This document shows, one piece after another, positions 5,533-16,987 of a stretch of DNA of 45,190 bases. This DNA is from Gammaproteobacteria bacterium. Lineage in GTDB: Bacteria > Pseudomonadota > Gammaproteobacteria > JACCYU01. The first letter of the stretch is position 1; every line of letters begins with the position of its first letter. Below the pieces are notes generated by a model. That model saw only the letters and a list, made by a program, of their open reading frames with translations, was not told the DNA's origin and searched no databases. Made by a program: the position numbers and the translations under genes. The stretch is taken from the NCBI GenBank assembly GCA_013696315.1, contig JACCYU010000102.1, forward strand, positions 1-45,190, in the 5' to 3' direction.

Positions 5533-5696
5533 GGCGTCAGGCTGAGCTTGAACCTGGTCGAGTCTCAAGTGCGTGTCGGGAGCGACCTTCCGGGCCTGGC
5601 AATCGCCTGGCATCTGCTCTTCACGACCGAGCTGCACGTCCTGTAACTTGTAATCACTCGTCTACATCAGCAGAATCCTTAGCAAGAGGGGATTCA

Positions 5697-5912
5697 ATGC
5701 CAGACTACGAACAAGTCCGCGGGGAGATTGATCGGCTGCTGATTGCGACAGGCAGAGCGGTACAGGATTACAAGCATTATGCTCCCGGGGCCGCGCGCGG
5801 CAGCGCGTTGCGCGAGGTGCCGCTCGAAGACCGCCGCTGTAATAACTGCTGGATGCGCGGCGCGGGCATCAGTATCGTCGCGGCCAAGTGGAAGGCGCAT
5901 CGAACACTATAA
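5697..5912 (+). CDS. Small hypothetical protein upstream of the Mod gene
   Basis: A 71-residue reading frame I do not recognise. Its ATG has a strong Shine-Dalgarno sequence (AGAGGGG, seven bases upstream), better than that of the large gene behind it, which argues for real translation. The first 28 residues look like a normal soluble helical protein (MPDYEQVRGEIDRLL...). The latter half, with CNNCW and loose basic residues, is less convincing, so the gene may be frameshifted in its second half. It ends 38 bp before the methyltransferase start and may be the first gene of that operon. Confidence 0.45.
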   Translation: MPDYEQVRGEIDRLLIATGRAVQDYKHYAPGAARGSALREVPLEDRRCNNCWMRGAGISIVAAKWKAHRTL

Positions 5913-5950: not shown

Positions 5951-8419
5951 ATGGCGAACGAAATCCAAACTCTGCTTGACGAGATTCCGGACGAGCGTTT
6001 GAAGGCGCGGCTGGCGACGGTCATCGGAGAACTCAAGAAGGCGAAGAAGTTCGGGCTGGTGTTCGAGGAACATTTACCCGAGCTCTTACCCATCCACAAT
6101 GCCGCGATCCGCGGCCAGTCCCGTGTGGCGCGGAAGGATGGAAAGCTGACAGAGACCTTCATCATCCTGGGCGTCGCGGAAGGCGCCGCCATGGTCAAGC
6201 CGGAGCATGGCGAGGGCGAGACTCAAAGCATTCCAGTCGCGGAACTGGTAGTGGTCAAGCGTTTCGGTGAGCCGATCTTTCCTGCGTTACGGCACGTCGA
6301 ATCCGTGTTGCGCGGCGGCGACGCGCCGCATCACACACTCATCGAAGCCGACAATTACCACGCGCTTCAGCTTCTTGAATGGCTATACGCCCGTAAGGTG
6401 GACTGCATCTATATCGATCCGCCCTACAACACCGGGGCGCGGGACTGGAAGTACAACAACGACTACGTTGATAAAAACGACGATTGGCGGCACTCAAAAT
6501 GGCTGGCGATGATGCACCGGCGCCTGCGATTGGCCAAACGGTTGTTGAATCCGAAGACCGGTGTGCTCATCGTGACGATAGACGAGCATGAAGTTCATCA
6601 CTTGGGCATGTTGCTGAAGCAAATATTCCCAAGTGCGTACCAGCAGATGGCCACGATCGTCATCAATCAGAAAGGAGTGGCTCAAGGGCGACTTGCACGA
6701 ACAGAGGAATACGCGCTGTTTCTTTTTATGCCAAATGCCTTTCTCCAAACTCACCACGATGACCTTCTTTCGCCAGATCAATCAGACCAAAAGCGATTTA
6801 TGACGCCTCGTTGGGAGTGGTTGCTGCGTGGCGGGAGCAACTCGCGACGCGAAGATCGGCAGCAACTGTTCTATCCCATCTTCGTGGACCCAATCCGTAA
6901 AGCTGTCACTCGCATCGGCGACTTTTTGCCGTTGGAAAAGAATCCAGACCTGAAAGCAGCAGACGATGGTTCCGTTGCGTGGCCTATTCGCACCGACAAC
7001 TCGTTTGGTAACTGGCAAGTCAGCCCTCGGACTTTGAGGCAACTGTTGGCACTCGGCTATGTGCGGCTCGGTGGCTTTGACAAAAAGCGCTGCACCTGGA
7101 CGGTACAGTATCTTAATAAAGGCACGCGAGCGCGGATTGACAGTGGCGCGATTCGGACCTCGGATCGTGATGTTGTAACTGGTGTTGTCAAGCTTGAATA
7201 TGCTGATGCTCAGGCGCGTCAACGAAACGTCAAGACCGTCTGGCATCGCGGTAAGCACGACGCTGGTATATATGGTTCAAATGTTCTCCGCTCCATTCTG
7301 GGCGATGAGCCTCGTTTCTCGTTTCCAAAGTCTGTGTATGCCGTGCGTGATGCTATCGGTGCGGTTGTCCGCGGCAATCCCGCTGCGTTGATCTTGGACT
7401 TCTTCGCCGGTTCTGGTACGACGCTGCATGCGGTAAACCTTCTGAATGCCGCTGATGGAGGCAATCGGCGCTGCGTGCTGGTGACCAACAATGAGGTGTC
7501 AAACGAGAACGCGAAGACCCTTCTCCGCGAGAGACATAGTCCGGGTGGCGTTGAGTGGGAGCAGTATGGTATCTGTCAGTCAGTTACCTTCCCCCGCTGC
7601 AAGTTCGTGCTAAACGGCAAGCGCGACGATGGCACGGAACTGCCGGGCGAGTACCTGACCGGTCAGTTCGAGGAACAGGAAGTCAGGCGCAGTATTCGTT
7701 CACTGGAATTCGCAACGCGCGAGACGCTGGGGAACAAAAAGGCGCGCGAGGCGCTCGCGCTGGCGGTGGGCTTTGCCAAATCTAAGGTAACCGGCAAGGA
7801 AACTTTTTTGCTGGCCAAGGATGAAAAGGTGGCTGTCCTGCTCGATCCGAGCGCCTTGGGTGAATTCATCGAAGAAGGCGAGGAGTCGGCAGAGAACATT
7901 GAGACGGTCTATCTGCCGCTTCCTTCTGGTAAGGCCTTTAATCAAGCGAAAGCCAAACTCGCGGAGGCCTGGCCTCCGCGAACCAAGAGCGTAGAAGTCA
8001 AACGTCCGATGAAAGATGGCTTCGCCGCTAACCTCGATTATTTTCGCCTGGAGTTTCTCGATCGAGCGCGAGTGGAATCTGGCGGCAGCCTCTTCGACCT
8101 GCTGCCCGCGTTGTGGATGATGGCGGGCTGCAGCGGCGAATTGCCCACGTGCGATGGCAGTGAATCCATGCTGCTTTATCCTGACTGTCCATTCGCGGTG
8201 CTGGTGGAGGAAAGCGGGATCAAGTCATTTCTGGATGAGCTTCGCAAGCGTGCGGACATCGACTGGGCTTTTCTGGTGACCAACGATCAGGATAGTTTCG
8301 CCCGCATGAGCGAGCGGCTGCCGGAGCATGTGCCGGTCACGCAGCGCGTGCACCTGTGGCGCAACTACTTGGATAACTTCTTCATCAACGCGGACAGGTC
8401 CTCGCCGGAGACGCCATGA
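5951..8419 (+). CDS. Type III-like site-specific DNA-adenine methyltransferase (Mod)
   Basis: An 822-residue N6-adenine methyltransferase of the beta class, in which catalytic motif IV precedes AdoMet-binding motif I. Motif IV is DPPYNTG at residues 156-162; motif I is DFFAGSGTT at about 483-491. The roughly 320 residues between them form the target-recognition region, as in type III Mod proteins. The protein is longer than classical Mod subunits (about 650 residues), with a C-terminal extension. It methylates the host recognition site and gives specificity to the helicase subunit, whose ATG overlaps its stop (ATGA, 8416-8419). The recognition region looks less GC-rich than the rest, suggesting exchange of specificity. 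The modified sequence is unknown. Confidence 0.88.
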   Translation: MANEIQTLLDEIPDERLKARLATVIGELKKAKKFGLVFEEHLPELLPIHNAAIRGQSRVARKDGKLTETFIILGVAEGAAMVKPEHGEGETQSIPVAELVVVKRFGEPIFPALRHVESVLRGGDAPHHTLIEADNYHALQLLEWLYARKVDCIYIDPPYNTGARDWKYNNDYVDKNDDWRHSKWLAMMHRRLRLAKRLLNPKTGVLIVTIDEHEVHHLGMLLKQIFPSAYQQMATIVINQKGVAQGRLARTEEYALFLFMPNAFLQTHHDDLLSPDQSDQKRFMTPRWEWLLRGGSNSRREDRQQLFYPIFVDPIRKAVTRIGDFLPLEKNPDLKAADDGSVAWPIRTDNSFGNWQVSPRTLRQLLALGYVRLGGFDKKRCTWTVQYLNKGTRARIDSGAIRTSDRDVVTGVVKLEYADAQARQRNVKTVWHRGKHDAGIYGSNVLRSILGDEPRFSFPKSVYAVRDAIGAVVRGNPAALILDFFAGSGTTLHAVNLLNAADGGNRRCVLVTNNEVSNENAKTLLRERHSPGGVEWEQYGICQSVTFPRCKFVLNGKRDDGTELPGEYLTGQFEEQEVRRSIRSLEFATRETLGNKKAREALALAVGFAKSKVTGKETFLLAKDEKVAVLLDPSALGEFIEEGEESAENIETVYLPLPSGKAFNQAKAKLAEAWPPRTKSVEVKRPMKDGFAANLDYFRLEFLDRARVESGGSLFDLLPALWMMAGCSGELPTCDGSESMLLYPDCPFAVLVEESGIKSFLDELRKRADIDWAFLVTNDQDSFARMSERLPEHVPVTQRVHLWRNYLDNFFINADRSSPETP

Positions 8420-10923
8420 AATTCGCGCTGCGCGAGTTCCAGAAGGCGGCCGTAAGACAACTGCTCAAGCGCCTGAAAAACGCCAAGCGAGACTTGCGGG
8501 ATGACGGCGTCGTCCAGGCTATCACCTTGTCCGCGCCAACGGCTTCCGGCAAGACCGTGATGATGACCTCCTTGATCGAGCGCATACTGTTCGGCAAGGG
8601 CGGACTGGAAGACCACGATGATCCGGATTTCCTGACCGAACCGAATGCGGTGTTCCTCTGGCTCTCCGACAGTCCGCAGTTAAACCAGCAGTCGCTGGAA
8701 AAGATGAGCGTGGCGGCGTCCGGCGAACTGATCGGTCGCCTGGAACCGGTGGAGGCCAGGTTCGACGCCGAGTACTTCGAGCCCGGATTCATCTATTTTC
8801 TGAACTCGCAGAAGTTGGGTGTGGCGGGTCTGCTGACCAAGAAGGGTGACGGCCGCCAATACTCGATCTGGGAGACGATCAACAACACCATTCAACGGCA
8901 GCAGGACCGTTTCTACGTCGTCATCGACGAGGCGCATCGCGGAATGCGCTCGAAGGCTGACGAGAATCAGGCCAAATGCATTATCCAGCGGTTTATCTTT
9001 GGCTCCGCCGACGTGCATCCCGCGCCCATCGTGATTGGCATCTCCGCTACACCTGAGCGGTTCGATGCATTACTGCCCGGTGCCGCAAGAACGCGCCACG
9101 TGGTGAACATTCCCGCAAGCGAGCCTCGCGACGCAGGACTCATCAAGGATTTCATCCTGATGTGCCACAACGACGACGATCAGCCAACCGAATGGACCTT
9201 GCTGGCCGGCGCCTGTATAGAGTTCAAGCGTATCTCGGACGAGTGGGAACGTTACTGCGCGGCAAACGATGAGCGGAGCACGGTTCGGCCCGTGCTTGTG
9301 ATTCAGGTCGAAGATGCGGGACAGGGCGGCGACGCCACGCAATCGAAAACGTCGCTGGCGAAACTGCTGGGGGTGGTCAAGAAGCAACTGCCAGATCTGA
9401 AGCCCGTTAACTTTGCTCATTGTCTGGAATCCGGAAAATTGCTTACGGCTGACGGCATTGACATTCGCTACGTCGAGCCGCACCGGATCGAGCATGATGA
9501 ATATTGCCGAATAGTCATCTTCAAGATGGCGCTGACAACAGGGTGGGACTGTCCGCGCGCGGAAGTAATGATGTCTTTCCGCAGGGCCGAGGACGCCACG
9601 TACATCGCACAGCTTGTGGGCCGCATTGTGCGCACGCCACTCGCGCGCAGGATGGCGGGTAACGATTTACTCAATAGCGTGATGCTGTTCTTGCCGTTCT
9701 ATCGCCGCGCGCAAGTGCAGGCCGTCGTGGAGCGGCTGCAAGGCGATGGCGGTGAATCCAAGGGCGCTGACGCGGGCGACCAGAGCGAGTTTCAGACACT
9801 CACAGTAGCGCCGGGCAAAGAAACACTACTGGATATTTACCGCAAGTTGCCCACTTACACGTCGCAAGAAGGTCGCAAAGTCGCGGACATCCGCCGCGCG
9901 TTGCGCTTTTGTTTCGAGCTCGCCTACGATGGCTGGCAAGATGAGGCCGTAGCGATCCGTGACGGGCTACGCGCAAAGCTGCTGCAAATCGGCAATGCAC
10001 ATCGCGAGGATGCCGATTTCATGCGGAAGTGTGAGGGATTGTCGACAATTACATATCGCGTGCTGCGGGTTGAAAACGGCGCCCTCAAGCCGGACGACCA
10101 AGGTGAGCAAACAAGCTTGCCGGTCACGGAGCAAGACGTGGAGACGGTATTCTCCCGCAGCTTCGTGACGCTCACCGAAGAGCTGGCCCGCTCATACGTC
10201 TCAGCGCGGTATGACGTAAGTGATCCCAATGCGCAGTTCTGGCGCTGCAAGCTGGAGTTGTTTCTGCTTTCGCAGGATGAGAGCGTTGTAAACAAGATTG
10301 AACGTGAGGCTATCAAGCTCATTGAAGACATCTACGAGCGCAAAAAGCCGGACATCGCCAAGCTGTCTACCGAACGGAAAGCCGCATACCGCCGGATTGC
10401 GCAGATGAGCCGTCACTTCAAGGCAACGGAGCCTTCAATACCCGATCCGGTGCGGCAAAAGACGGACAAGGATGGCCAGTTACTTTCGGATCATTTGTTT
10501 GTCACGGAGCAGGGCGAATTCAAGGCAGCGCTGAACACCTGGGAGAAGCCAGTGCTCGACAATGTTCTCATCGCACCGGATTTTCTGGGCTGGCTGCGCA
10601 ACTACCCACGCAAACCGTGGAGCATTGCGTATACCTATAAAAACAAAGGAGTGGACACGCCCGGTTATCCTGACTTCGTGGTGTTCCGGGAACAAGGCGA
10701 GCACATCGTCGTCGACCTGCTGGAGCCTCATCAAGGCGCGGATGCACTCGCCAAAGCGCATGGTCTATGCCGGTTCGCGGAGCAACACGGCGGCCAATTC
10801 GGGCGCATCGAATTCATCAGGGTCGAGGGCAACCAGATAAAGCGGCTTGACGTCAATACAGGGAGTGTGCGATCAAAGGTGCTTGCGACAAATGTGGATG
10901 GAGCATTGGACACATTAATTTAA
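8416..10923 (+). CDS. Type III-like restriction subunit (Res), DEAD/DEAH-type helicase
   Basis: An 835-residue superfamily 2 helicase. Walker A is PTASGKT (about residues 41-47), Walker B is IDEAH (about 170-174), motif III is SATPER, and motif VI is QLVGRIVR near residue 400. The C-terminus has a PD-(D/E)xK-like layout: PDFVVF with Asp753, then VVDLLEPH with Asp767, but the Lys normally two residues after the second acid is Leu769. The ATP-dependent motor looks intact; whether it cuts DNA in the classical way is uncertain. Its start overlaps the mod stop by 4 bp, so the two are translationally coupled and should form a Mod-Res complex. Confidence 0.87.
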   Translation: MKFALREFQKAAVRQLLKRLKNAKRDLRDDGVVQAITLSAPTASGKTVMMTSLIERILFGKGGLEDHDDPDFLTEPNAVFLWLSDSPQLNQQSLEKMSVAASGELIGRLEPVEARFDAEYFEPGFIYFLNSQKLGVAGLLTKKGDGRQYSIWETINNTIQRQQDRFYVVIDEAHRGMRSKADENQAKCIIQRFIFGSADVHPAPIVIGISATPERFDALLPGAARTRHVVNIPASEPRDAGLIKDFILMCHNDDDQPTEWTLLAGACIEFKRISDEWERYCAANDERSTVRPVLVIQVEDAGQGGDATQSKTSLAKLLGVVKKQLPDLKPVNFAHCLESGKLLTADGIDIRYVEPHRIEHDEYCRIVIFKMALTTGWDCPRAEVMMSFRRAEDATYIAQLVGRIVRTPLARRMAGNDLLNSVMLFLPFYRRAQVQAVVERLQGDGGESKGADAGDQSEFQTLTVAPGKETLLDIYRKLPTYTSQEGRKVADIRRALRFCFELAYDGWQDEAVAIRDGLRAKLLQIGNAHREDADFMRKCEGLSTITYRVLRVENGALKPDDQGEQTSLPVTEQDVETVFSRSFVTLTEELARSYVSARYDVSDPNAQFWRCKLELFLLSQDESVVNKIEREAIKLIEDIYERKKPDIAKLSTERKAAYRRIAQMSRHFKATEPSIPDPVRQKTDKDGQLLSDHLFVTEQGEFKAALNTWEKPVLDNVLIAPDFLGWLRNYPRKPWSIAYTYKNKGVDTPGYPDFVVFREQGEHIVVDLLEPHQGADALAKAHGLCRFAEQHGGQFGRIEFIRVEGNQIKRLDVNTGSVRSKVLATNVDGALDTLI

Positions 10924-11031: not shown

Positions 11032-11340
11032 ATGATTAATTCCGCTGTTAACATCCCGCACGAACGTATGGCGGACCTGTGTCGCCGGTACGGCATCCGC
11101 AGTCTTTCTTTATTCGGGTCTGCAACCCGAGCCGACTTCAGACCAGACAGCGACATCGATGTATTAGTCGAGTTTGAGAAGAACGCGGAAGCAAGTCTTT
11201 TTGATCTGGTCGAGATCGCGCGCGAGTTGTCGGAGCTATTTGGCAATCGTGCTGTCGACGTGGTCACGCCGGCAGTCTTACGCAATCCATATCGACGGCG
11301 GGCGATACTCAAAGACCTGGAGCGCGTGTATGGCGTCTGA
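11032..11340 (+). CDS. mntA: MntA-type minimal nucleotidyltransferase (cassette copy 1), lacking an adjacent HepT
   Basis: A 102-residue MNT protein with the motif GSx10DxD (Gly29-Ser30, then Asp41 and Asp43 in DSDIDVLVEF), as in MntA antitoxins that AMPylate and silence HepT RNase toxins. The start is placed at ATG 11032 because the paralogue at 14947 begins the same way; the frame is open further upstream. It is identical to that paralogue at 87 of 102 residues (counted by eye). In copy 2 a hepT gene overlaps the end of mntA, but here similarity stops at the last codons and no hepT follows. It is therefore an orphan antitoxin, or it acts on another HEPN protein. Confidence 0.88.
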   Translation: MINSAVNIPHERMADLCRRYGIRSLSLFGSATRADFRPDSDIDVLVEFEKNAEASLFDLVEIARELSELFGNRAVDVVTPAVLRNPYRRRAILKDLERVYGV

Positions 11341-11386
11341 GTAGCGGGAGCGACGTCCAAGCGGGAGGGAATTGAGCTTTACGCTG

Positions 11387-11414
11387 TGTAGCTCAATCGG
11401 CTACAATTGTAGCC
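11387..11414 (+). promoter_or_regulatory. Palindromic operator upstream of wHTH-MNT copy 1
   Basis: GGCTACAATTGTAGCC (11399-11414) is a perfect 16-bp palindrome. A third half-site TGTAGC at 11387-11392 gives three spaced TGTAGC/GCTACA units. The dyad ends 23 bp before the proposed GTG start of a protein with an N-terminal winged helix, so it is the natural candidate for its own operator (inference). Confidence 0.65.
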
Positions 11415-11437
11415 CAAAAGGCCACAAGAAGTCCCTA

Positions 11438-12088
11438 GTGATCACAAAGAATCCTATTGATCTTGGAGCTTTGTTCTTTGGTGCTTACCGCCGTCAAGTC
11501 CTCGCTTTGTTGCTGCTCCATCCGGATGAATCATTTCACCTGCGAGAGATAGCGCGGATCACCAATACGCAACCGGGCACGTTGAGACGCGAACTCGCGC
11601 TGCTTGCGGATGCTGGGGTAATCAAACGCGAGAAGATCGGGAATCAGGCACATTACCAGGCCAACCCAGCCTGCCCTATTTATGAGGACTTACGCGGCAT
11701 TTTAAGGAGAACCGCCGGTGTCGCCGATGTGCTCAAGGGCGCGCTTCAGCCTCTCAGCGAGAAAATCGTCGCTGCGTTTGTTTATGGCTCTGTGGCGCGT
11801 GGCGATGAGCGCGCGGGGAGCGATCTCGACCTTATGGTCATAGGTGAGGTTAAACTCGTCGAGTTAGTTGAAGCTCTTACCAAGGCTGCGGAGACGCTCC
11901 GACGGGAAATCAACCCCAACGTCTATTCGCGGCGCGAGTTCCGTACCAGGCTCACAGCGGGCGAACCATTTTTGCGGCGCGTGATGGACGATAAGAAAAT
12001 TCTCTTTATTGGCGCTGAAGATGACCTTAGACAACTTGCTTCGAATCGGAAAGCTCAAACCACACACACCAGACAAGGCCGAGATTGA
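11438..12088 (+). CDS. Winged-helix nucleotidyltransferase (wHTH-MNT), cassette copy 1
   Basis: A 216-residue two-domain protein. Residues about 15-75 form a winged helix-turn-helix (RRQVLALLLLHP, then LREIAR, then GTLRRELALLADAGVI). Residues about 105-200 form an MNT nucleotidyltransferase with GSx10DxD (Gly117-Ser118, Asp129, Asp131). It probably both represses its operon through the palindrome upstream and modifies the HEPN partner encoded next. GTG 11438 is chosen because it aligns with the start of the paralogue at 15635; earlier in-frame starts would run through the palindrome. Its 3' end overlaps the HEPN gene by 68 bp in another frame, so the two are tightly coupled. Confidence 0.82.
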   Translation: MITKNPIDLGALFFGAYRRQVLALLLLHPDESFHLREIARITNTQPGTLRRELALLADAGVIKREKIGNQAHYQANPACPIYEDLRGILRRTAGVADVLKGALQPLSEKIVAAFVYGSVARGDERAGSDLDLMVIGEVKLVELVEALTKAAETLRREINPNVYSRREFRTRLTAGEPFLRRVMDDKKILFIGAEDDLRQLASNRKAQTTHTRQGRD

Positions 12089-12461
12089 GCGCCTGCTGGC
12101 GGCGGCGGAACGCGCGTTGAAAGACGCTAATATGTCGCGCATAAGTTCCGATGGACGTCTTGATCTTGCCTATCGTGCCATCATGCAGACAGCGCTCGTC
12201 GCACTACTCGCAAACGGTTTCCGTCCGTCTACAGGTGAACCTGGTCACCATCAGCTTCTGATCCAAGCGCTGCCCAAGACTCTGGGTTTACCTGCTGAAC
12301 GCGTTCGCTTGCTCGACGCATTCCGGGCCGCGCGGAATCGAAGCGATTACGACGGGGTCCCTGTGTCGCATGCGGTGGCGCGGGAATGCGTTGAGGAGGC
12401 GCGCCTTCTACTTGAAGGCTTGCGTGCATGGCTTTCTATTAATCGTCCCGAACTCGTATAA
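12021..12461 (+). CDS. HEPN-domain protein, partner of wHTH-MNT (cassette copy 1)
   Basis: A 146-residue all-helical HEPN-type protein. The recognisable core is DGRLDLAYRAIMQTALVAL followed by RAARNRSDYDG, the position of the HEPN RNase motif. Here the motif is RNxxDY and lacks the usual His of Rx4-6H, as in many HEPN proteins paired with nucleotidyltransferases. It may be an RNase toxin or a binding partner controlled by nucleotide addition. The start is ATG 12021, inside the end of the wHTH-MNT gene. It is intact, unlike its copy-2 counterpart, and ends 12 bp before hsdM. Confidence 0.75.
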   Translation: MTLDNLLRIGKLKPHTPDKAEIERLLAAAERALKDANMSRISSDGRLDLAYRAIMQTALVALLANGFRPSTGEPGHHQLLIQALPKTLGLPAERVRLLDAFRAARNRSDYDGVPVSHAVARECVEEARLLLEGLRAWLSINRPELV

Positions 12462-12473
12462 GCTCACGCCATA

Positions 12474-14088
<1,615 letters not shown>

Positions 14089-14095
14089 GTTCTTA

Positions 14096-14656
14096 TCATT
14101 TGATCTCCCAGGTCGTGTTATGCGGGATATCCATCGCGGTGTAGCCGCCGGGGCCAACCAGATCAGGCATTGGTAAACAAGCAAATGGCTCACGCCCGGT
14201 GATGCCCGCGTATTTGCCGGTGCCGCCCGTGATGATATGGGTGCCACAATCCATCTTCGGCTGCGACTTGTCGATGTCGCGCGTATCGAACGTCGAGAAT
14301 ATGACGTCACCGTCGGTATCGGTCAGTGCACAGGCGCCATCAATGTATTGCTTGTCGCCCGACGCAACGCTCAGCGCTGCGCAACGGGCTGACATGTTGT
14401 CGAGCATCTTCTCTCCCTTCATGTTTTCGGTGGTCCCGACCGCCTCCAGCGTGGTGACCTTACCGACGCCGGGAACGTCAATGGTCTGCAGAGGCCGAAA
14501 AATGAAGTGCGTCACGTAGGGCGTGGTCCCCTTCGTTGCCATCGGATCTGCTAGGACGACCCCGGGGGCAAAGGACATGACTACCCCGGAGAGAAGCGCG
14601 GTTTTGACAAGGGCTGCGACGGTTGCCGCGATTATGCTCAGGTTCATGGCTTTCAT
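14096..14656 (-). CDS. Exported hypothetical protein with an allene oxide cyclase/dirigent-like GTGKYAG motif
   Basis: A 186-residue protein with an N-terminal signal peptide of about 36 residues ending near VVLADP. The string GGTGKYAGITG resembles the GTGKYxGxxG loop of allene oxide cyclase and dirigent beta-barrels, so a small exported barrel is likely; the likeness rests on this short motif only. Three later Cys residues (GACALT, MDCGTH, FACLPM) could form disulfides. AAGGAGG (plus-strand positions 14662-14668) lies five bases upstream of the ATG, so it is well translated. It sits alone between the IS remnant and cassette copy 2. No link to defence is evident. Confidence 0.7.
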   Translation of the reverse strand: MKAMNLSIIAATVAALVKTALLSGVVMSFAPGVVLADPMATKGTTPYVTHFIFRPLQTIDVPGVGKVTTLEAVGTTENMKGEKMLDNMSARCAALSVASGDKQYIDGACALTDTDGDVIFSTFDTRDIDKSQPKMDCGTHIITGGTGKYAGITGREPFACLPMPDLVGPGGYTAMDIPHNTTWEIK

Positions 14657-14946
14657 TGGTGCCTCCTTCTCGGATTGATTATGAGTACTAAGCTTTTTGG
14701 TTCATTCAGCACGTTCCTCCAGTGTGAGAGACGCGCGCTAAGTCACGGCGTTGACGCCACTATCGATCCAGGTACATGGCCGGGGGAGTCTCATCCCAAG
14801 CTGGACCTGATCACGATGTAAAGCACTGTCAAGGAATAAGATAGAAAGAACTTGCCTAGTTGTGGTAATTCAAGCGATGACTTTGGATATTATGAGCGCG
14901 CGTGAAAGTTTAAGTGGGAGTTGGCGCCGAGCTGATACAGATGGCA

Positions 14947-15255
14947 ATGACTAACTCCGCCATCGAGGTGCCACACGAACAAATAGCGGATCTCTGTCGC
15001 CGGTTCGGCATCCGCAGCCTGTCCCTGTTCGGGTCCGCGACACGAGACGACTTTCGGCCGGATAGCGACATCGACGTATTGGTCGAGTTTGAAGAGACTG
15101 CGCAAGCAAGTCTTTTTGATCTGGTCGAGATCGAGCGCGAGTTGTCGGAGCTATTTGGCAATCGTGCGGTCGACGTGGTCACGCCGGCCATCTTCCGCAA
15201 TCCGTATCGACGGCGGGCGATACTCAAAGACCTGGAGCGCGTGTATGGCCCCTGA
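14947..15255 (+). CDS. mntA: MntA-type minimal nucleotidyltransferase (cassette copy 2)
   Basis: A 102-residue paralogue of the gene at 11032 with the same GSx10DxD motif (GSATRDDFRPDSDID). In characterised HepT-MntA pairs this protein transfers AMP units onto the Tyr of the HepT Rx4HxY motif and blocks its RNase activity. The start at ATG 14947 matches the paralogue; ATG 14941 and GTG 14914 are in frame too. The hepT reading frame begins at 15245, overlapping the end of this gene by 11 bp, but hepT is broken. This antitoxin gene has outlived its toxin. Confidence 0.88.
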   Translation: MTNSAIEVPHEQIADLCRRFGIRSLSLFGSATRDDFRPDSDIDVLVEFEETAQASLFDLVEIERELSELFGNRAVDVVTPAIFRNPYRRRAILKDLERVYGP

Positions 15256-15594
15256 AGACCGCAACGCCGCTTACGAATGGGACGTGCTCGAAGCGGCGAA
15301 GGACGTGGTCGAGTTGATGGCTGGCAAGACTCGCCAAGATTAGCATGCGAACAAAATGCTTCGCATGGCGGTGGAACGCGGACTGGCGAGGCGGCAGGCA
15401 GAGTGTCGAAGCCGTTCCAGGATCAGCATCCAGAAGTTCCGTGGCGGAACACTATCGGGCAGCGTAACGTGCTGGCACATCAGTACGGCAAGATCGGCTA
15501 CGACTTGTTGTACCCGACCGCGACGCGGGATGTGCTGCGTTGTATCGAGGTGCTTCCCAAGCTGTTACCGCCCTCTTTTGAATTTCGTAGTTGA
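15245..15594 (+). pseudogene. hepT: HepT-type HEPN RNase toxin, inactivated (cassette copy 2)
   Basis: The pieces reassemble into a HepT protein: MAPEDRNAAYEWDVLEAA and VVELMAGKTRQD, then an in-frame amber codon (15341-15343), then NKMLRMAVERGL in the same frame. Near 15380 the frame shifts, apparently through a deletion of about 10 bp, and continues as GEAAGRVSKPFQDQHPEVPW and IGQRNVLAHQYGKIGYDLL. The catalytic Rx4HxY motif (RNVLAHQY) survives, but behind the stop and the frameshift. No functional toxin should be made. It follows mntA with overlap, the normal order for this pair. Confidence 0.85.
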
Positions 15595-15605
15595 AGGCTT
15601 GAGTG

Positions 15606-15641
15606 TACCCAATAAGGGAATTATCATTCCCAATATGGGTA
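15606..15641 (+). promoter_or_regulatory. Operator-like paired repeats at the start of wHTH-MNT copy 2
   Basis: Two copies of CCCAATAWGGG (15608-15618, ending AAGGG; 15629-15639, ending ATGGG) lie 21 bp apart, each a short dyad. Together they form a larger inverted repeat from TACCCA to TGGGTA with inner arms GGGAAT/ATTCCC. The second copy contains the proposed ATG start. The position matches that of the palindrome before the copy-1 gene, but the sequence is entirely different. Confidence 0.6.
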
Positions 15642-16240
15642 TCAAACGAAAAGGCCTGTCTGATGCGTTGTTCACCGCAACCCAGCGTCGCGTGCTTGGC
15701 TTGCTGTTCGGTAATCCAGACCGTAGTTACTACGTGAACGAAATCCTGCGTTTCGCCGATATGGGCATCGGAGCGGTGCAGCGCGAGCTTGAGAGTTTGG
15801 AAGCTGCTGGCTTGTTGAATGTCACGAAAATCGGCAATCAGAAGCATTACCAGGCTAACCGGCAATCGCCCATATTCGAAGAGCTTCGCGCCATTGTCAT
15901 CAAGGCTTTTGGCGTGGCTGACGTGCTCCGTGTGGCACTGGCGTCGCTCGCCGGGCATGTGCAAGCTGCCTTCATCTATGGCTCGGTCGCGAAGGGAACG
16001 GACACCGCAAGCAGCGACATTGACGTTATGGTCGTCGGTCATGATATTTCCTGCCCGGACGTCATTGGCGCACTTGAAGAAAGCGAAAAGGCGCTCGGGC
16101 GTGCCATCAATCCAACCCTCTACAATCGGCAAGAACTCCAGCGCAAACTAGCGGCGGGTAATGCGTTCCTCAACAGGGTTTTTAAGCAACCCAGAATCTT
16201 TCTGATCGGGTCTGACGATGACATCAAAGCCTCTCGATAA
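15635..16240 (+). CDS. Winged-helix nucleotidyltransferase (wHTH-MNT), cassette copy 2
   Basis: A 201-residue paralogue of the copy-1 protein with the same architecture. The winged helix covers residues about 12-75 (TQRRVLGLLFGNPDRSYYV, GAVQRELESLEAAGLL) and the MNT domain has GSx10DxD (Gly116-Ser117, Asp128, Asp130). Similar blocks include KIGNQKHYQAN and AFIYGSVAKG. The ATG at 15635 lies within the repeat that probably acts as operator; a TTG about 12 codons upstream is an alternative start. It overlaps the start of the following HEPN gene by 23 bp. It looks intact although its HEPN partner is broken, so it may persist as a regulator or as a source of cross-talk. Confidence 0.8.
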   Translation: MGIKRKGLSDALFTATQRRVLGLLFGNPDRSYYVNEILRFADMGIGAVQRELESLEAAGLLNVTKIGNQKHYQANRQSPIFEELRAIVIKAFGVADVLRVALASLAGHVQAAFIYGSVAKGTDTASSDIDVMVVGHDISCPDVIGALEESEKALGRAINPTLYNRQELQRKLAAGNAFLNRVFKQPRIFLIGSDDDIKASR

Positions 16241-16638
16241 CCTTGTGCGGGCGGCAGCCTCAAGAAAGAGGCGGGAAGCCAACAGGAAGTCGACGGCCTG
16301 GTGCGGTCGGCGCGAAATCGGCTACGCGACGCACAAATCGAGGGACTTTCATTCGATAGCCGGTTCGATCTCACATACAACGCCTCGCACGCGCTGGCGC
16401 TCGCGGCACTGCGCTGGCACGGCTATCGATCGGAAAATCGCTACCTGGTTTTTCAATGCCTGGAGCACACATTGCGCATCAACCCCGAGAGTGGAAAGTC
16501 CTTGCGAAGTGCCATCAGCGGTGCAACGCGGCGGAATATGAGGGTTACTTGGAAGCAGATGAACAGTTAGTAATTGACCTCACCAGGATTACGCACATGT
16601 TGCTTGAAAAAGTTTCGGCCATGGTGCCGGTGTCATGA
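16218..16638 (+). pseudogene. HEPN-domain partner of wHTH-MNT copy 2, frameshifted
   Basis: The start is normal (MTSKPLDNLVRA). The frame shifts near 16252, continues as SLKKEAGSQQEVDGLVRSA and the HEPN core FDSRFDLTYNASHALALAAL, then shifts again near 16490 into KVLAKCHQRCNAAEYEGYLE and a normal C-terminus ending at the TGA at 16636. Read across all three frames it is a complete HEPN protein with RCNAAEY at the motif position, like RNRSDY in copy 1. Two independent small indels make it a pseudogene unless the assembly is wrong here. The stop overlaps the ATG of the next remnant. Confidence 0.8.
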
Positions 16639-16906
16639 ATTCAGTAACCATCGTCCAGAAGCCCTGATACTGCTGCAAGCGCAACCCCCCGAGGCTCGGC
16701 CAGAGCCTCGCCCGTTCGCCCTGGCACGCGAACGCTCATATGTTCGCGAGAAATCCCGGCTCACCCTGCGCGATGACGGCCTTCGTACGGCGATTACGTC
16801 GAGCATTTGACGTTTCTGTGTTCCTGAAGATGGCGGACGAGCAGTCCAAGCCGCCGTTCGATAAGCCCGTGCCGATTCCCGCCAAATACGCGGCCAAGAG
16901 CCAGTG
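16635..16906 (+). pseudogene. hsdM: HsdM remnant (cassette copy 2)
   Basis: The first 27 bp almost match the start of the copy-1 hsdM (MNSVTIVQK against MNSATIVQK). About 90 bp of unrelated DNA with two hairpins follows. From about 16765 similarity resumes: the codons for LRDDGL, YGDYVEHLTFL (with a small indel), then FLKMADEQSKPPFDKPVPIP, before the frame ends at 16906. Only the first 60 or so residues of an HsdM are represented, and no catalytic motif remains. Its presence shows that copy 2 once had the same gene order as copy 1. Confidence 0.82.
16690..16748. repeat. Two adjacent hairpins inside the hsdM copy-2 remnant
   Basis: CGAGGCTC-GGCCA-GAGCCTCG (16690-16710, perfect 8-bp arms) is followed by CGCGAAC-GCTCATAT-GTTCGCG (16727-16748, perfect 7-bp arms). 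They lie in a segment that has no match in the copy-1 hsdM. The pair resembles a small REP-like or palindromic insertion element; the class is unknown. Confidence 0.55.
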
Positions 16907-16987
16907 AACGGCGACGGTCTCCGTGGCCTCGCCCCAAGCGACATTGCTGCCACGCTCGAATACCATTGTTTCCCGAAGAAGTTTCCC

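Follow-up and report, generated by a model that had tools for sequence, protein, structure and literature searches.

The window, a stretch of 45,190 nucleotides (contig JACCYU010000102.1 of the Gammaproteobacteria bacterium assembly GCA_013696315.1), contains two plus-strand blocks, at 11032-13489 and 14941-16908, which follow one gene order: an MntA-like nucleotidyltransferase, HepT, a winged-helix nucleotidyltransferase (M05A), a HEPN protein (M05B) and the type I methylase gene hsdM. The locus belongs to a type already known, caught here at an informative stage, with candidate toxin-antitoxin and defence pairs that were probably cargo of type I operons now decayed. A first-pass annotation of the same DNA had reported this order twice within about 6 kb, with HepT lost in copy 1 and a pseudogene in copy 2; coordinates and family matches bear out the order, and the end of homology and the frame breaks bear out the fate of HepT. 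MntA, M05A and M05B are complete in block 1. Block 2 retains full MntA and M05A genes, together with frame-broken copies of hepT and M05B. The blocks comprise:

11032-11340, plus strand: MntA-like nucleotidyltransferase, copy 1 (PADLOC PDC-S09), GSX10DXD motif present
11330-11344, plus strand: start-codon remnant of the lost hepT, copy 1, read from the sequence (ATGGCGTCTGAGTAG; ATG-GCG-TCT-GAG-TAG)
11399-11414, no strand assigned: putative operator of M05A1, a perfect palindrome (GGCTACAATTGTAGCC) over a -10-like TACAAT, 23 bp before the M05A1 start
11438-12088, plus strand: M05A1, winged helix fused to a minimal nucleotidyltransferase (PADLOC PDC-M05A, E=4e-77)
12021-12461, plus strand: M05B1, HEPN protein with a complete frame, RNRSDY replacing RX4-6H (PADLOC PDC-M05B, E=2e-55)
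12474-13489, plus strand: hsdM copy 1, pseudogene with an in-frame TAG at 13314, truncated by an IS4 remnant
14941-15255, plus strand: MntA-like nucleotidyltransferase, copy 2 (PADLOC PDC-S09), 85% DNA identity with copy 1, dN/dS about 0.17-0.18
about 15245-15594, plus strand: hepT pseudogene, frame-broken, RNVLAHQYG motif kept (tblastn with the G151 HepT; NCBIfam HepT below cut-off)
15599-15640, plus strand: putative promoter/operator of M05A2 (TTGAGT, 17 bp, TATCAT, interleaved CCCA/TGGG dyads), with the ATG within the last dyad
15635-16240, plus strand: M05A2, winged helix-nucleotidyltransferase, intact (PADLOC PDC-M05A, E=1e-82)
16218-16638, plus strand: M05B2, HEPN pseudogene with frameshifts, the RN motif's invariant R replaced by C (PADLOC PDC-M05B, E=5e-33)
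16635 to about 16908, plus strand: hsdM copy 2, 5' fragment with an insertion and stops (DNA comparison)

The overlaps described earlier are all present, M05A with M05B in both blocks and, in block 2, MntA with the hepT pseudogene and M05B with hsdM (4 bp, ATGA). Homology between copies 1 and 2 ends at the hepT start, hepT1 being reduced to its first codons. The hsdM1 frame (12474-13316) is stopped by the in-frame TAG, and homology runs on to about 13489, where the IS4 transposase remnant begins. Within hsdM2, an insertion of about 90 bp (16670-16775) is rich in palindromes, resembles a REP-type or MITE-like element and is common to the sister species G085.

By profile matches far above chance (E values as listed, for M05A and for M05B immediately downstream, the broken copy 2 included), the winged-helix nucleotidyltransferase/HEPN pair is PDC-M05, a candidate catalogued by PADLOC. 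Its source is reportedly the guilt-by-embedding study of Payne et al. 2024. PDC-M05 is described as pairing a nucleotidyltransferase with a HEPN protein, in a set drawn from genes embedded in other defence systems (PMC12988326), and the window pairs agree with it in profile match, gene order and overlap, with no structural difference. The leading genes, MntA1 and MntA2, miss the NCBIfam MntA equivalog cut-off (41.5 and 41.9 bits vs 60); they nonetheless belong to NTP_transf_2 and PDC-S09. No intact HepT with RX4HXY was found in the window, the gene being lost in copy 1 and frame-broken in copy 2, though the RNVLAHQYG is present there.

Relatives were collected from 274 genomes of the class and then from GTDB contigs, giving 112 M05A loci besides the window; some of these contigs are short, so that all neighbour counts are lower bounds. 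A 6-sequence alignment used as query of GTDB contigs yielded 80 loci, and a scan of GTDB contigs with M05B1 for close relatives gave no match. Two alignments of M05B (28 and 55 rows, 83 in total, copy 1 included in both) contain the RX4-6H RNase motif in 0/28 and 0/55 rows. The family carries instead R-N-x-x-[E/D]-Y-x-G, in which R and N hardly vary, and the Tyr at R+5 is near-invariant. M05B1 matches Pfam HEPN (E=2e-5), and its structure model has a confident HEPN fold (pLDDT 94) for which Foldseek returns first 2hsb (AF0298) and then human sacsin HEPN and HepT structures. AF0298, an archaeal HEPN protein, is the closest solved fold (TM 0.67/0.76) and likewise lacks the canonical histidine at the aligned motif; it differs from M05B in sequence (24% identity), and no winged-helix partner is shown for it. 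In this branch of HEPN proteins the histidine is frequently substituted and a different site may be used; RNA binding is a possible role of HEPN domains that lack the motif (PMC3710099). In HepT SO_3166, mutation of the motif R or H abolishes toxicity (PMC4621449).

M05A retains the nucleotidyltransferase motif. GSX10DXD reads GSVARGDERAGSDLD in M05A1, and its residues G127, S128, D139 and D141 are invariant in 29 sequences. The M05A1 model joins a winged helix to an MNT domain (pLDDT 89), with MntA/MNT antitoxins and ArsR-like repressors as the nearest solved folds. Just before the winged-helix core, 78 of the 112 M05A genes have CCCA-N3-TGGG, where the surrounding DNA would predict 0.27. Often there are two dyads on either side of a TATAAT-like box, itself preceded at about 17 bp by a TTGA-like box; 28% of the loci reach a promoter score of at least 10 out of 12, against 1% of shuffles. 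The region can be read in frame, and the proline codon CCC is used there in 87% of cases vs 26% in the gene body, which places the conservation in the DNA and rules out a 'PxxGxIIPxMG' N-terminus conserved as protein in favour of a DNA operator. The copy 1 palindrome GGCTACAATTGTAGCC differs from the copy 2 site, and near-identical ones precede M05A in L044 and L050. Self-repression by M05A would be the natural reading of the operator; SO_3165 represses its own operon (PMC4621449).

The blocks had been taken for a duplicated cassette, a view that does not survive comparison. Long DNA matches are confined to MntA (85%, 310 bp) and the hsdM start (88%, 87 bp), and the blocks also align over two short pieces of 35-44 bp. 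M05A1 and M05A2 share 42% protein identity and are parted by several well-supported branches in a tree of 114 sequences. A single block duplication is ruled out on both counts. Because the flanks are alike and the centres are not, the comparison suggests that different PDC-M05 pairs came into the same site; recombination through MntA and hsdM could plausibly have brought this about.

The nature of this site becomes apparent in relatives of hsdM, which were matched in 29 of the 274 genomes (E<=1e-30). Among the closer ones (about 52% identity or more), 14 operons have hsdS on the same contig, and all 14 are ordered hsdR-hsdS-gap-hsdM, with other genes occupying the gap over roughly 0.5 kb or more (hsdR is not always on the contig); among more distant relatives (43-45% identity), three of four are without such a gap. 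Its occupants include a patatin phospholipase with an oligonucleotide cyclase (CBASS-like), DarT-DarG, AbiD, a SoFic-like Fic protein, PDC-M28, a Schlafen-type protein, MntA-HepT standing alone between hsdS and hsdM (G151), and an ATPase with M05AB (G015). AbiEii-type genes stand before hsdM in G260 and G170, for which no hsdS can be seen. As the gap is filled in 14/14 operons by diverse genes, the hsdS-hsdM slot serves as a cargo site for a range of occupants, PDC-M05 among them. M05AB lies between hsd genes in L062 and L072; only hsdM remnants adjoin it in the window, where the original place is deduced. Defence genes embedded in type I operons are already known, such as DarTG2 (PMC12255303), TgvAB (PMC11411939) and HEPN genes (PMC3710099). 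Since the occupants vary between genomes and many are known systems, the slot constitutes a practical hunting ground for new defence modules.

M05B adjoins M05A at 99 of the 112 loci; hsdM lies directly downstream at 7 and was not found there at the other 105 (some contigs being short), and 18 have a type I gene of any sort within 5 kb. Plasmid-borne M05AB without adjoining hsdM occurs, e.g., on Legionella hackeliae plasmid II and Sulfuricella pSCD; a 4.6 kb Legionella adelaidensis 'plasmid' match was set aside, no HEPN partner being annotated there, and a search for M05B in phages gave no match. HEPN/MNT genes stand directly in front of hsdM in L062, L070, L072 and L074, and a 4-bp M05B/hsdM overlap is present in window copy 2, L041, L062, L070 and L072. 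MntA or HepT beside M05 was found only in G085, so that MntA-HepT beside M05 is ruled out as a general arrangement. Recurrence of HEPN/MNT linkage to hsdM holds in part: it is seen in the four loci just named and in G151, but at few loci overall, and the 'double pair' order was seen only in the window's genus.

In L045 (G247) a 1171 bp M05A-M05B unit is present twice (6948-8118 and 13349-14519, 99.8% identical, 6.4 kb apart). A small transposase-like gene is repeated several times around it, and the unit seems to have been copied recently. An hsdM 5' fragment lies upstream of M05AB in L062 (G015; 8010-8432) and L074 (6449-6877), with hsdM downstream too (10561 to the end in L062), as if the pair had entered by recombination within the hsdM start. 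In L207 (4989-6796), on the conjugative Legionella hackeliae plasmid II, the gene next after M05A and M05B is an overlapping one whose annotation reads aminoglycoside adenylyltransferase-family protein; it could be a third member.

The sister species G085, used for the dN/dS and block 2 comparisons, dates the loss of the methylase. Its orthologous block 2 adjoins the same rnd gene, and its hsdM2 start has the same insertion at the same site, whereas the M05B frameshifts differ between the two species; the common ancestor thus had M05B intact and hsdM already interrupted. Relative to G085, dN/dS is 0.10-0.16 for M05A2 and about 0.07-0.22 for the in-frame parts of M05B2. Selection kept pair 2 after hsdM was lost at that site, and losing that hsdM therefore did not force loss of the pair, a natural case of PDC-M05 outliving a neighbouring methylase. 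This argues against a device for killing the cell when HsdM disappears. In G085 an hsdR remnant follows msrA, on another contig than block 2, as would suit a former type I operon spanning the msrA-rnd interval.

Taken together, these observations favour, at a probability of roughly 0.6, a reading in which each block is the end of a decayed type I operon with defence cargo and PDC-M05 is an autonomous, self-repressed, toxin-antitoxin-like module. Each block would represent the downstream end of an hsdR-hsdS-cargo-hsdM operon, its slot filled by an MntA-HepT toxin-antitoxin remnant and a PDC-M05 pair, with the two pairs belonging to different lineages. M05A would repress its own promoter through the palindromic operator and would also neutralise M05B, probably through a modification like that of HepT by MntA, for which the near-invariant Tyr at R+5 is a candidate target; once released, M05B would bring growth to a halt in infection or stress. 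As M05B is without the catalytic histidine, it may act by RNA binding or through an alternative active site. Repression, modification, toxicity and an anti-phage effect of M05AB are thus all predicted properties. Several points weigh against this reading. The antiviral role of PDC-M05 has been called unconfirmed (PMC12988326), and no toxicity, repression or phage data on any PDC-M05 were found in the literature. The dN/dS values compare two genomes, and the G085 contigs C28 and C69 are presumed neighbours. Other N6 methylases are present in the genome, and an HsdM partner in trans is possible. The M05B/hsdM overlap in several lineages could reflect a functional link.

A functional link was at the centre of the first-pass annotation, which proposed that the nucleotidyltransferases could silence HEPN RNases while HsdM is present; on such a model, loss or inhibition of the type I enzyme would free them, as with PrrC. 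That restriction-modification subunits restrain an embedded HEPN RNase had been proposed before, with PrrC-PrrI as precedent (PMC3710099), and both the recurring adjacency and 4-bp overlap of M05B and hsdM and the lone MntA-HepT just before hsdM in G151 speak for it. Against this stand the 83 aligned rows without RX4-6H, the many M05 pairs without linked hsdM, some of them on plasmids, the unrelated modules in the slot of other genomes, and the purifying selection on pair 2 after hsdM2 carried the shared insertion; linkage to an intact hsd operon is not consistent (7/112), and both hsdM copies of the window are dead. A guard over HsdM is consequently very improbable. At the other extreme, M05 pairs might simply gather in defence islands, their position before hsdM being meaningless, as the low counts of hsdM directly downstream (7/112) and of type I genes within 5 kb (18/112) would allow. 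However, of the eight genomes in the 274-genome sample with both families, four carry the two within some 5 kb of each other (binomial P about 1e-8, which rejects random placement only), and the 4-bp overlaps in several genera and the 14/14 filled slots argue for a defined insertion site. The first-pass annotation had itself equated absence of recurring linkage in relatives with chance accretion; since HEPN/MNT genes recur before hsdM in other genomes, the arrangement is not pure chance by that standard, and accretion of this kind appears unlikely.

A third possibility is that the self-repressed M05A promoter also drives the methylase, the module being a restriction switch comparable to RptR at the type I-DarTG island (PMC12255303). 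The strong, conserved predicted promoter/operator and the 4-bp overlap of M05B with hsdM would suit such a role, but the arrangement is rare, in L062 the M05A promoter comes after hsdR and hsdS, and neither hsdM of the window is functional, which leaves control of hsdM by M05A a doubtful proposition. A bolder version, in which the hsdS-hsdM gap is a dedicated exchange slot of a type I subfamily, the M05A promoter there sets hsdM expression and M05B acts without the usual RNase site, is speculative and would at present be doubted as well; if true, a toxin-antitoxin repressor becomes a methylase switch.

The preferred reading, an autonomous PDC-M05 module in a type I cargo slot, places M05AB near several known systems. 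As in MntA-HepT (type VII toxin-antitoxin), the MNT gene lies upstream of the HEPN gene, the genes overlap and M05A has GSX10DXD; the first gene of each window block is itself MntA-like, and in Shewanella the antitoxin represses its own operon (PMC4621449). M05AB differs from it by the added winged helix of M05A and by the lack of the catalytic RX4-6H in M05B. DarTG2 with RptR (PMC12255303) and TgvAB (PMC11411939) are, like M05AB, small defence modules within type I restriction genes. RptR binds palindromes overlapping the -10 box, and its authors suggested a recombination hotspot (PMC12255303); the DarTG2 island site lies between hsdS and hsdR, whereas the M05AB slot lies between hsdS and hsdM, and RptR is a separate small repressor, whereas M05A would combine both functions. 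PrrC, encoded with the type IC system PrrI, is also a HEPN-containing protein among hsd genes; it combines an ABC ATPase with an active RNase site and is itself restrained by the PrrI complex (PMC3710099), and M05B has neither ATPase nor such a site. With the predicted operator, the conserved non-canonical RNxx[E/D]Y motif and a setting in the hsdS-hsdM slot added here to PDC-M05, a widespread candidate, a speculative guard system gives way to a specific, testable picture.

The surroundings of block 1 comprise:

5657-5831, plus strand: possible remnant of an hsdR 5' region, tentative (72% identity over 177 bp with sister-species L204:4829-5001)
5951-8419 and 8416-10923, plus strand: type III restriction-modification mod and res (PADLOC MTase_III, E=2e-131; Pfam ResIII, E=8e-11)
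13493-13856, minus strand: IS4-family transposase remnant (NCBIfam NF033591, E=1e-21)

In the sister species, L204:4829-5001 continues into an hsdR remnant; the window segment 5657-5831 is too decayed to match hsdR by tblastn. The mod-res pair (5951-10923), apparently complete and directly upstream of MntA1, has no match in G085. Between the blocks, 14096-14656 (minus strand) encodes a secreted-looking protein of 186 aa without a Pfam match, whose relative in G085 lies on a different contig with 78% DNA identity.

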